Assembly (NCBI GenBank): GCA_036511855.1
Contig: DATCBN010000041.1
Location: forward strand, 1 to 51,462
Length of the DNA: 51,462 nt
Source: Candidatus Eremiobacteraceae bacterium
GTDB lineage: Bacteria; Vulcanimicrobiota; Vulcanimicrobiia; Eremiobacterales; Eremiobacteraceae
Direction: 5' to 3'
Position 1 is the first letter of the stretch, and each line of letters begins with the position of its first letter. Under the pieces are notes generated by a model. The model saw nothing but the letters and a program-made list of their open reading frames with translations. It was not told where the DNA came from and searched no databases. Shown in pieces: positions 13,245 to 51,462 of this stretch. The position numbers and the translations under genes were made by a program.

Positions 13245-13289
13245 GCCGACTTTTATGGTCGGCTGTACTAGGGCAAGCATCGCTTGCCC
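13245..13289. repeat. Palindromic intergenic repeat between convergent transporter genes
   Basis: Two hairpins stand in the 83-bp gap. The first is GCCGAC-ttttatg-GTCGGC (13245-13263). The second is GGGCAAGC-ATC-GCTTGCCC (13271-13289), the core of the window's repeat family. They lie after the stop of the TSUP gene and the stop of the YeiH-like gene, where a bidirectional terminator or mRNA end-stabiliser would be useful. Confidence 0.85.
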
Positions 13290-48104: not shown

Positions 48105-48499
48105 GCGGCTCAGATCGTTTTCTCCTTGCGGATATTGGGCGAATCTAGGGCGGGCGGAACTGAGTCCTATGAAATTGTGCGAAACTCGCCGGTGCAAAGC
48201 GGTTGCGGGCTGTTTGCAATTTTTGAGATACGACCGGGCGAATATTCCCCGGTGTAATGATCGCGCGTTCGCAAATGACGCGAACGAATACGAATAAATG
48301 GTGGCTATAGATAGCCAGATGATTGCTAGCAGTATATCACGCGAAATATAGCAGCGTCAATTTTCGGTATTCATATGCGGTACACGCATGCGAGATTTGT
48401 AGTTTTAAGCGATTGCGTTCCGCTAGAGGAGTCCGAGTTCAACCACAGGAACGCGAATTTCACAATGCGTTCCGTGATGCGGGTTATCCACAACGTCGA
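48105..48499. other. Divergent intergenic region upstream of the 3D gene and a glycosyltransferase
   Basis: The roughly 395-bp region is AT-richer than neighbours between 48290 and 48420. It holds the 3D gene's AAGGAG ribosome-like site (48119-48124 on the minus strand). It also holds GGCTAT-AG-ATAGCC (48303-48316), a short palindrome, and TATA-rich stretches near 48333-48350 that could be a rightward -10. I see no convincing small gene, tRNA or riboswitch. Frames reading into the glycosyltransferase from 48323 have no homologous residues before about 48500. Confidence 0.5.
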
Positions 48500-49747
48500 T
48501 TGAAGATCGCGATTTTCACAGAAGTCTATCGTCCCATTGTGAATGGTGTCGTCACGTCGGTGGATTCGCTCGCGGATCACCTGCGTCGCGCGGGTCACGA
48601 CGTCTACACGTTTGCGCCGCACATTCCAAAGGGCGCGGAGACATTCGGTCGCGTGTTTCGGATGCCGTCGCTTCCGTTGCCGGCGCGCACCGAATACCGT
48701 CTCACGCTGCCGCTCGTATCGAGAAAAAATAAGCGCGCGTTCTTGGGTCAGTGCGATGTCATCCATTCGCATTCGTTGTTCATCACAGGGTGGATGGCGT
48801 CGTATTATGCGCGCAGAAGATTTCGTGTGCCGCTCGTGTTCACGTATCACACGCTGTTGGAGAATTACGCGCATTACTCGCCGCTCGGTCAGCGCCTGAC
48901 TTCGCAACTCACGCGCGAACTCACGCGCACGTACGCCAATGCCGCCGATGCGGTGATCGTGCCGACACAAGCAGTCGCGACGCAACTGCGGCAGCAAGGC
49001 GTCAATGCGCCGCTGTGCGTCGTTCCAACGGGAGTCGATATCGAGGCCTTCCGCGATGGCGATGCGGCGCGTGGCATGGCCGTTCGGAACCGTCACGGCA
49101 TTCCGCTGGACGCCCCGCTCGTGCTCTTGGTCTCTCGACTGGCCCAGGAAAAGAACGTGCCTCTGGTATTGGAGGCCTTGAAGCATTTGCGAAGTCGCCT
49201 ACCGGCCGCTCGCTTGCTGCTCGTTGGCGCCGGGCCGCTGGACGATGCGCTGAAAGCTCAAGCTGCGGCAGAGGGTCTGGAGGAAGCGGTTGCCTTTGCC
49301 GGCAGCGTGCCGTATGCAGAGCTGCCGGAGTACTACTCGGCCGCAGATGTCTTCGCGTTCCCATCCAGCACGGAGACCCAAGGGTTGGTCATGGCAGAGG
49401 CGTTTGCAGCCGGCCTGCCGGTGGTTGCCGTGGATACGCCGCAGGCGCGCGATGTGTTCGGGATCCACCTCGCAGGCGAACTCGTCGCGGATGCGCCCGC
49501 CATGGCGCAGGCCTTGTTCGCGCTTCTCACGTCGCCTGAGCGTCGCGCTGCGGCGTCGGCACACTCAAGGGCGGCTGCCGTCCAATTCGACGCCAGAGCC
49601 ACTGCAGGCAGAGTCTTCGCGGTCTACAACGCAGTGCTCGCCAACAAGGCGGGCCTTGCAGACATGTCGGCGTTCGACGAACTATTTGAAGTGGTCGATC
49701 CCGGGCTTGTCCCGGAAGACGCGCGCGAGAGATCGACCCAGACTTAG
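48500..49747 (+). CDS. Glycosyltransferase family 4, glycolipid-type
   Basis: This protein of about 415 residues is a GT-B enzyme: KIAIFTEVYRPIVNGVVTSV, YTFAPHIPKGAETFGRVFRM, DVIHSHSLFITGWMASYYAR, VFTYHTLLENYAHY, AVIVPTQAVATQLRQQGV, VVPTGVDIEAF, LVSRLAQEKNVPLVLEAL and the donor motif FAFPSSTETQGLVMAEAFAAGLP. The pattern is that of diacylglycerol glucosyltransferases and PimB-like mannosyltransferases, which build membrane glycolipids. TTG 48500 was chosen because homology begins at the next residue; no good ribosome site is visible, and a longer version from 48323 cannot be excluded. Confidence 0.9.
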   Translation: MKIAIFTEVYRPIVNGVVTSVDSLADHLRRAGHDVYTFAPHIPKGAETFGRVFRMPSLPLPARTEYRLTLPLVSRKNKRAFLGQCDVIHSHSLFITGWMASYYARRRFRVPLVFTYHTLLENYAHYSPLGQRLTSQLTRELTRTYANAADAVIVPTQAVATQLRQQGVNAPLCVVPTGVDIEAFRDGDAARGMAVRNRHGIPLDAPLVLLVSRLAQEKNVPLVLEALKHLRSRLPAARLLLVGAGPLDDALKAQAAAEGLEEAVAFAGSVPYAELPEYYSAADVFAFPSSTETQGLVMAEAFAAGLPVVAVDTPQARDVFGIHLAGELVADAPAMAQALFALLTSPERRAAASAHSRAAAVQFDARATAGRVFAVYNAVLANKAGLADMSAFDELFEVVDPGLVPEDARERSTQT

Positions 49748-49797: not shown

Positions 49798-49826
49798 TTG
49801 ACTATCGAACACCTGTTCGATACAAT
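49798..49826 (+). promoter_or_regulatory. SOS promoter: LexA box between -35 and -10
   Basis: TTGACT (49798-49803), a 17-bp spacer and TACAAT (49821-49826) form a strong sigma-70 promoter. The spacer contains TCGAACACCTGTTCGA, a perfect palindrome with 7-bp arms that matches the mycobacterial/Bacillus-type LexA consensus (CGAAC-N4-GTTCG). LexA bound there would block polymerase until DNA damage activates RecA. The expected start of transcription is within a few bases of the ATG at 49836, so the mRNA is again leaderless. Confidence 0.88.
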
Positions 49827-49835
49827 TATAGCGTC

Positions 49836-50339
49836 ATGAACGCCCAAGCTCAAGCAGCCCGCCTTCCCCTAGCATTGCCCCCGGCCAAGGGCAGGGCCGC
49901 CCGCGCCGTTCGCGACGCCGATTATCAAGCCCACGTCACCGTCGTACGCTGCGGATCAAAACGGGGTGTCGTCGGGGTACAGGTCTTGGGTTCGCTCGGC
50001 ACCGATTCGGGCGAGCACTTCATTCCGTTCGAGGTCAGAGAAACGCCGTCGCAACTAGGCCGCGACTTCGGCTATGCCGGCATGCTCGCCGCCTTGCAAC
50101 GTCTTCGAGTGCTCGGCGTCCGGCGTGTTCTCGTACACACCGACGACGCGGCGCTCGTCGACGAATTGGATCACCGAGCAGAACCGCACAGCGATCTCAC
50201 GTTACCTTATATCATGTTGGGTTGTAAGCTGAACGAATTTGCGCGGGCCCGAGTCATCGCTTCGCCGCCTGAGCGGCTTGCGGGATTACGCGCGAAGACC
50301 GCCGCGCTTGCGCTCACCATCTACCAAGAAGTCGCGTAA
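49836..50339 (+). CDS. SOS-regulated protein of unknown function, possibly RNase H-like
   Basis: This 167-residue cytosolic protein starts at ATG with NAQAQAARLPLALPPAKGRA, a basic, disordered lead. The rest suggests an alternating alpha/beta fold: HVTVVRCGSKRGVVGVQVLG (two strands), a helix YAGMLAALQRLRVLGVRRVL, then VHTDDAALVDELDH and a helical tail with LNEFARARVI. The helix-strand-TDD segment recalls the RNase H-like fold, but most of its acidic catalytic residues are absent; only the Asp pair in HTDD is left, so the fold is a guess. Its promoter carries a LexA box, so it should be induced by DNA damage. No known SOS gene (lexA, recA, imuB, dnaE2) matches it. Confidence 0.7.
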   Translation: MNAQAQAARLPLALPPAKGRAARAVRDADYQAHVTVVRCGSKRGVVGVQVLGSLGTDSGEHFIPFEVRETPSQLGRDFGYAGMLAALQRLRVLGVRRVLVHTDDAALVDELDHRAEPHSDLTLPYIMLGCKLNEFARARVIASPPERLAGLRAKTAALALTIYQEVA

Positions 50340-50398: not shown

Positions 50399-50426
50399 GG
50401 GCAAGCATCGCTTGCCCATTTTTTTT
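50399..50426 (+). terminator. Palindromic repeat acting as an intrinsic terminator
   Basis: GGGCAAGC-ATC-GCTTGCCC (50399-50417) is followed by an A and eight T residues (50419-50426). This is a strong stem with a U-run, 60 bp after the SOS-regulated gene and just before the convergent AI-2E gene. Partial relatives (GGGCCGA...TACTA) precede it from 50357. A member of the repeat family appears to have been recruited as a terminator. Confidence 0.75.
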
Positions 50427-50434
50427 CGTGCCCA

Positions 50435-51462
50435 TCACTCCGATGTGCTCGTCGTCTCCCGTGCGAACTCCACTACAAGCGGTGGGCGCAAAGTAGTCTG
50501 TGGATCATGGGGATGCATGAAGCGCTTTACGATCACGCGGATGATGCCGGCGACCGGCACCGCGATGAACATCCCGAGCACGCCACCTAATTCTGCGCCG
50601 GTCAATATCGCGATGATCACGACCAGCGGCGTGAGGCCCACGCGCTGCCCAACCACCATCGGCGCAATGAAATGCCCTTCGATCTGATACATCAGCGCGA
50701 ACGCAACCGCCACGACGAGCATGGAAATGGGGCCGTTCGTGTACAGCGCGATGATGACGGCGGGAATCGCGCCGGCGATCGCGCCCACGTACGGAATGAT
50801 ATCGGTGATGCCCGCGAAGATGCCGATGAGGAGTGCGAACTTGATGTGCAGTGCCAAAAGCATGACCGTCACAATCACCGCGATGATCGCGCCCACGATG
50901 ATCTGCCCGCGGATGAATCCGCTCAGCACCGATTCGATATCGGCCAGTACCTCCAGCAGCAAGCTGCGCCGGCGTTCGGGTACCATGCGAAGCGCCATCG
51001 AGCGGAGATGCTCGAGGTCGATGATGATATACGCTGCCAGCACCGGGATGATGATGAGCGCGGTAATCACCGATGCGACGCTCAGCGCGATTTTCAACGC
51101 CTGACCTGCGAACGCGCCGGCATCGGTCTGCAATTGGACGACCAATTGGTCGACGAGGTTGGCAGCCGTCTCGCGCGCTTCGAGCGGCACTGACGACAAC
51201 AAGCTATTGTTCGCACCCACGATGCTGTCGCGCGCTTGCGTGAGTAGTCCGGGGAAATCGCGGCCGAGTGTGCGGGACTCGAACGCTATGCGCGGACCGA
51301 GAAACGCGAAGATGCCGCCAAACACAACCGCGAGCGCGACGTAGACGGTGGCAATCGCAAGCCAGCGCGGCCAGTGGCGCTTTTCGAGCCACGCGATCGG
51401 CGGGAAAACGAGATACGCGAAGAACGTGGCGCCGATCAGCACCGTGACCACGGCGAGGATCC
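50435..51462 (-). CDS. AI-2E family transporter, N-terminus beyond the window
   Basis: The frame stays open to the right edge, so the N-terminus is cut off; an in-frame GTG at 51451 is only apparent. The visible 338-plus residues are a multi-spanning protein with family landmarks FAYLVFPPIAWLEKRHWPRW, VASVITALIIIPVLAAYIII, SGFIRGQIIVGAIIAVIV, FAGITDIIPYVGAIAGAIPA and MYQIEGHFIAPMVVGQRVGL. The PerM/AI-2E family includes exporters and Na+/H+ antiporters; AI-2 transport is proven only for some. It converges on the SOS gene. Confidence 0.9.
   Translation of the reverse strand, partial: ILAVVTVLIGATFFAYLVFPPIAWLEKRHWPRWLAIATVYVALAVVFGGIFAFLGPRIAFESRTLGRDFPGLLTQARDSIVGANNSLLSSVPLEARETAANLVDQLVVQLQTDAGAFAGQALKIALSVASVITALIIIPVLAAYIIIDLEHLRSMALRMVPERRRSLLLEVLADIESVLSGFIRGQIIVGAIIAVIVTVMLLALHIKFALLIGIFAGITDIIPYVGAIAGAIPAVIIALYTNGPISMLVVAVAFALMYQIEGHFIAPMVVGQRVGLTPLVVIIAILTGAELGGVLGMFIAVPVAGIIRVIVKRFMHPHDPQTTLRPPLVVEFARETTSTSE

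Follow-up and report, generated by a model that had tools for sequence, protein, structure and literature searches.

A LexA box inside the promoter of a 167-residue gene

The window, by which we mean the whole stretch of 51,462 nucleotides analyzed here, belongs to a 3.07-Mb Eremiobacterota assembly, for which the closest named record stands at 71% protein identity. Near the end of the window, an open reading frame encoding 167 residues follows a TTGACT/TACAAT promoter with a 17-nt spacer, in which 10 of the 12 hexamer bases are matched, and the spacer holds the LexA-type box TCGAACACCTGTTCGA (Table 1). Rereading the sequence gave this box, its place in the promoter spacer and the length of the reading frame exactly as in the first-pass annotation. 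The palindrome had also been described as perfect, which is true of its 6-bp arms but not of the center, where ACCT is non-palindromic. A longer frame beginning at TTG 49788 was rejected, as it would run through the box and the -10 hexamer. The dN/dS values of the gene, 0.03‒0.41 in 12 pairs, indicate purifying selection.

Table 1 Features around the LexA-type box, in window coordinates
Feature	Position	Strand	Basis or remark
GT4-type glycosyltransferase, upstream neighbor	48323-49747	+	Start codon uncertain; outside the SOS unit
-35 hexamer TTGACT	49798-49803	+	Sequence; TTGAC-like in nearly all orthologous promoters
LexA (SOS) box TCGAACACCTGTTCGA	49805-49820	none	Core CGAACACCTGTTCG at 49806-49819
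-10 hexamer TACAAT	49821-49826	+	Sequence
Predicted SOS gene, 167 aa, ATG start	49836-50339, including stop codon	+	Open reading frame; orthologues; dN/dS
Probable intrinsic terminator	50399-50427	+	8-bp stem and T run
AI-2E-type permease, convergent	50435-51451, cut by window end	-	Named by sequence appearance

The ATG begins 9 nt after the -10 hexamer. Since transcription would start 5‒9 nt after this hexamer, the 5′ UTR would comprise about 1‒5 nt, and the leaderless transcript suggested earlier is plausible at the window locus. The spacing is held in the window's own family (f1), where the distance from box to start is 13‒17 nt in 12/12 loci. It is not conserved elsewhere: in many loci of other families the distance reaches up to 42 nt, often with AGG or GAGG before the start.

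The exact 16-mer TCGAACACCTGTTCGA occurs once in the window, and its core CGAACACCTGTTCG has one zero-mismatch occurrence in the 3.07-Mb genome. The looser pattern CGAACN4GTTCG is not enriched genome-wide, with 10 occurrences versus 11 for its reversed control. Since the count is no higher than that of the control, it proves nothing alone, and we dropped enrichment as evidence. What raises the box above chance is its conservation across orthologous promoters.

NCBIfam matches identify the upstream neighbor as a glycosyltransferase. It lies directly upstream of the gene in 65/68 loci, and its stop codon precedes the box by 33‒81 nt in the loci listed. The convergent permease keeps the same order in loci related to the window. 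The stem of the probable terminator is one copy of a dispersed palindrome, GGGCAAGCNNNGCTTGCCC, which is present in 392 copies in the 3.07-Mb genome (0 for the reversed control). Its 17-mer starts at 13272, 18681, 24083, 24118, 37904, 47254 and 50400 in the window, and the copies are partly arranged in arrays with steps of ~42 nt (C4:124416-124770). This palindrome looks like a REP-type element.

Conservation of the box across the class

Of 102 distinct orthologous promoters, 101 carry CGAAC-N4-GTTCG without any change, and no other exact box occurs among 183,345 positions of the same loci. Over the 102 promoters, the ten box positions vary only at a single base in genome G118. The columns flanking the box, the hexamers excepted, carry little information, and the neighboring bases drift. 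Wherever a locus includes upstream sequence, the box is flanked by a -35 element resembling TTGAC and a -10 element resembling TATAAT. The central bases are mostly RTAY over the 102 promoters, which gives the class box CGAACATATGTTCG. The combined pattern TTGACN{0,4}CGAACN4GTTCG was found in 111/117 genomes of the class versus 1/32 other genomes of the phylum, with the reversed control near zero. With the exact box in 101/102 promoters, the LexA motif of the class is established, and the regulon becomes readable genome by genome.

LexA and its regulon

The first-pass annotation had proposed LexA control and named two observations that would speak against it, homologues that lack the box and a lineage that lacks LexA. 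All homologues with upstream sequence carry the box. The genome of the window encodes LexA, which matches the equivalog TIGR00498 with 214 bits (cut-off 111), and PF01726 was found in 82/85 good-quality genomes of the phylum. We take the HTH of the LexA encoded in this genome to resemble the Bacillus type. A weaker second match to the LexA domain in the same genome (L002) was set aside; its sequence suggests an IclR-like regulator.

Among the sites read, the other carriers of the TTGAC-(0-4)-box pattern are mostly imuA, imuB and dnaE2, and in the genome of the window a CGAACATACGTTCG box at C60:5759 precedes imuA-imuB. At lexA, boxes with one mismatch number two to three in most of the genomes examined and two in this genome. 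For LexA of Firmicutes, the consensus CGAACRnRYGTTYC and the footprint tacgAACatatGTTcgta have been reported (PMC2248561), and the class box CGAACATATGTTCG is the core of both. The class is like the LexA/SOS regulon of Firmicutes and Actinobacteria in having the same box; the LexA HTH is similar, the box is inside the promoter, and lexA and imuA-imuB-dnaE2 are common targets. On the other hand, the class differs from this regulon in its 167-residue target, which falls in no named SOS family, and in recA, for which no canonical box was found in seven of eight upstream regions (L268-L275, from eight genomes of the class). The absence of a canonical box from recA is unusual for an SOS regulon.

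Judged from the conserved promoter sequences, it is close to certain that the 167-residue gene is under LexA control in the class. SOS regulons are well mapped in cultivated phyla only, and a literature search, mostly of journals outside subscription, yielded no paper connecting LexA to Eremiobacterota.

Distribution of the gene and its association with aag

In a profile search, the gene was found in 105/117 genomes of the class and in 0/32 other genomes of the phylum, nearly always as a single copy. A search beyond the phylum, run with one single-protein query rather than a profile, gave one match, which belongs to the same phylum. The gene had been regarded as apparently lineage-restricted; this is true at the level of the class, which is not a narrow lineage. 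A mobile origin was considered and rejected, as no relatives were found in IMG/VR (three queries), phages or plasmids. The incomplete genome G061 has two boxed copies of the gene, on C38 and C255, which may result from contamination or strain mixture.

The conserved gene order is glycosyltransferase, the 167-residue gene, in many genomes aag, and rho, followed by a pseudouridine synthase. The aag gene, encoding 3-methyladenine DNA glycosylase (PF02245), is directly downstream on the same strand in 76/89 genomes of family f3 and 4/4 of family f2 (80/93 together), and the distance from the stop codon to aag is often 5‒43 nt. The assemblies of nine f3 genomes (genera g21 and g29) lack Aag but keep the gene; the two of these loci that were read through have the order glycosyltransferase, gene and rho with an intact box. 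In the window's family, f1, aag is adjacent in 0/11 genomes and is found 1.3‒8.8 kb downstream, also on the same strand, in 7/11. There, the block containing the permease parts the gene from aag. In one f1 genome (G018), aag lies behind an inserted block of permease, peptidase, TonB receptor and pilin-like genes, and in the genome of the window it was found on a different contig (C97), where no box lies nearby.

Since aag is adjacent in f2 and f3 and displaced in f1, an SOS operon of the gene and aag is likely to be ancestral and to have been split in f1. Co-transcription of the two genes is thus probably the ancestral state, with Aag/MPG being the probable operon partner and a protein different from the 167-residue product. 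The first-pass annotation had put the gene forward as a candidate repair factor, and the aag operon in related genomes strengthens this link to repair. The operon also suggests SOS control over the base excision of alkylated bases; in Escherichia coli, the excision of alkylated bases is largely under Ada and not LexA.

Remote similarity of the protein to RNase HI

The window protein matches no Pfam, NCBIfam, PADLOC or PHROGs family above cut-off, and the searches of PADLOC, NCBIfam and PHROGs gave only scattered weak matches, which agrees with the earlier statement that it is not a known SOS protein. No membrane segment was found, the highest 19-residue hydropathy being 1.0 in the window protein and 1.54 in the family. 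The protein, which is expected to be soluble, is basic, with a pI of 9.4 in the window and a median of 9.7 outside f1; a basic charge is common among proteins of GC-rich genomes. Tyr125 and Cys130 are invariant in the family.

When the family was aligned by hhalign with 26 RNase HI sequences taken from the same genomes, the match had a probability of 77% and an E-value of 2e-5, and the unrelated control, ImuA, gave an E-value of 0.73. The family profile ranks 21 of these 26 proteins above all 546 decoys. Pfam RVT_3 is matched by 5/67 members, with a best E-value of 6e-5, and in a separate search one member exceeded the RVT_3 gathering score (23.2 versus 21.6 bits); the match of the window protein alone is weak (E = 0.06). 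The top match among PDB profiles is ribonuclease HI, also weak (E = 0.28). A structure prediction had been proposed as a check on the fold. The model obtained was built from two sequences only and, with a pLDDT of 42, is unusable, so the reading of the fold rests on remote sequence similarity. In this model, strands and helices follow one another as E E E H E H E H, an order that would fit RNase H but does not count as evidence for it.

The family can be aligned with RNase HI/RVT_3 from helix A to the C-terminal helix, and its motif LPYVxLxCxLNxF aligns with LxPLyxxAxxLLrxF of RNase HI. However, the D10-E48-D70-D134 tetrad of active RNase HI is absent from the family. The family has G, A, S, I, T, V or L in place of E48, with an acidic residue in 0/67 members; most members carry Arg in place of D134, and Asp is found at the D70 position in 27/67. 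The residue next to the D70 position, D104, is acidic in 67/67, which would be compatible with an altered active site. Besides lacking the catalytic Glu, the last Asp and the DGGxRGNPGP loop, the family differs from RNase HI in its invariant Tyr125 and Cys130 and in its SOS regulation. Every genome examined also encodes a separate RNase HI in which the tetrad is complete. We consider an RNase H-like fold likely for the protein, with its active site lost, in agreement with the degenerate RNase H-like fold first suspected from its alpha/beta pattern.

Possible roles in the response to DNA damage

We consider, with a probability of roughly 0.55, that the gene encodes an SOS-induced and probably non-catalytic nucleic-acid binder of the RNase H fold, which acts in the repair or tolerance of base damage, and that it is a core SOS gene of the class. 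Since the LexA switch is retained in 101/102 promoters and a glycosylase gene follows in most lineages, the product is very probably a new DNA-damage-response factor. LexA would occupy CGAAC-N4-GTTCG between the -35 and -10 hexamers and shut the promoter, and upon DNA damage the RecA-stimulated cleavage of LexA would free it. The product, presumably a distant RNase HI paralogue in which the catalytic carboxylates have been lost, would bind damaged or hybrid nucleic acid without cutting it, for example abasic or alkylated DNA, the DNA of stalled forks or R-loops, and may assist or shield base-excision intermediates or stalled forks. A role in base damage seems most likely because of the probable ancestral co-transcription with Aag. 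The protein is unlikely to depend strictly on Aag for its function, since aag is not adjacent in f1 (0/11) and is gone from nine f3 genomes in which the gene persists. Its most likely role is that of a factor that assists or protects in the repair or tolerance of base damage and is useful without Aag too.

Several other explanations have to be weighed. It is highly improbable that the palindrome arose by chance or serves a different regulator and that the gene stands outside the SOS regulon. The missing genome-wide enrichment of CGAACN4GTTCG would fit a chance box, but the box is kept in orthologous promoters amid drifting surroundings, the same site is found at the mutasome genes and lexA, and it agrees with the consensus for LexA in Firmicutes and Actinobacteria. 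The box and promoter architecture common to imuA, imuB and dnaE2, together with the usual co-occurrence of the gene and ImuA, raises the question of a fourth member of the ImuA-ImuB-DnaE2 mutasome that aids error-prone translesion synthesis. Such a subunit is improbable, since the gene outlives ImuA in near-complete genomes: it is kept without an ImuA-level match in G049 (98% complete), G084 (98%) and G115 (94%). Conversely, G020 and G097 have ImuA without the gene, and the two occupy separate loci wherever both were read.

The persistence of the gene without Aag in the nine f3 genomes and without ImuA in these three is checkpoint-like, and the product could be a class-specific SOS inhibitor of cell division, which would fill the role of SulA or YneA in a new way and block septation until repair. 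Many lineages own an unrelated SOS division inhibitor, and the gene is small, mostly single-copy and equipped with the best-conserved box seen in the regulon; it resembles the SulA/YneA-type inhibitors in its size, its lineage specificity and its tight LexA control. However, it has no sequence similarity to them, including no match to the SulA family, and its genomic partners are different. The absence of a membrane segment argues against an inhibitor of the YneA, DivS or SidA kind, and the ancestral glycosylase operon and the similarity to RNase H point to nucleic acid rather than FtsZ. We regard a division inhibitor as unlikely. Somewhat less likely still, the protein could be a catalytically active member of the RNase H superfamily whose metal site has been rearranged (D39, E77, D104 and E158 in the larger families) and which would cut RNA-DNA hybrids or damaged DNA beside abasic sites made by Aag. 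Besides the invariably acidic D104, Asp is present at position 39 in 41/67 members and Glu or Asp at position 77 in 55/67 and at position 158 in 52/67. On the other hand, the window protein has Cys39 and Leu158, the position of E48 is never acidic and that of D134 rarely, and every genome examined also has a true RNase HI whose tetrad is intact.

A non-catalytic binder acting on base damage remains our preferred reading. In a bolder form, which is tentative and rather doubtful, a dead paralogue of RNase HI would have been recruited at the origin of the class as a universal SOS effector. This protein would read abasic or alkylated DNA or RNA-DNA hybrids without cutting, handing lesions to Aag or protecting them after its action, with Cys130 being functional and perhaps reactive. 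If this is true, base excision repair would include an SOS-controlled branch so far undescribed. Among the SOS targets seen in the class, the best conserved is a protein without a name in any family library, and it persists where the ImuA mutasome has been lost. In the literature searched, mostly outside subscription journals, neither the family nor its probable fold nor its role as the best-conserved SOS target of the class is described.

Further candidate targets of LexA

Both lexA boxes in the genome of the window (C30; L001 1819-1895) sit between lexA and a divergent open reading frame with a LysM domain. The second box is directly before the latter frame, a YneA-like layout, and this frame may be a further SOS gene. 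A one-mismatch box at C93:41524 (L282 1501) in the same genome stands just before an open reading frame for a DnaE-like DNA polymerase III alpha. In genome G045, TTGACCGAACGTACGTTCG (L239 555) precedes an ftsY-like frame, and the same string is present in G038, G040, G041, G051 and G052, all of genus g14, in which the receptor of the signal recognition particle is possibly under SOS control.
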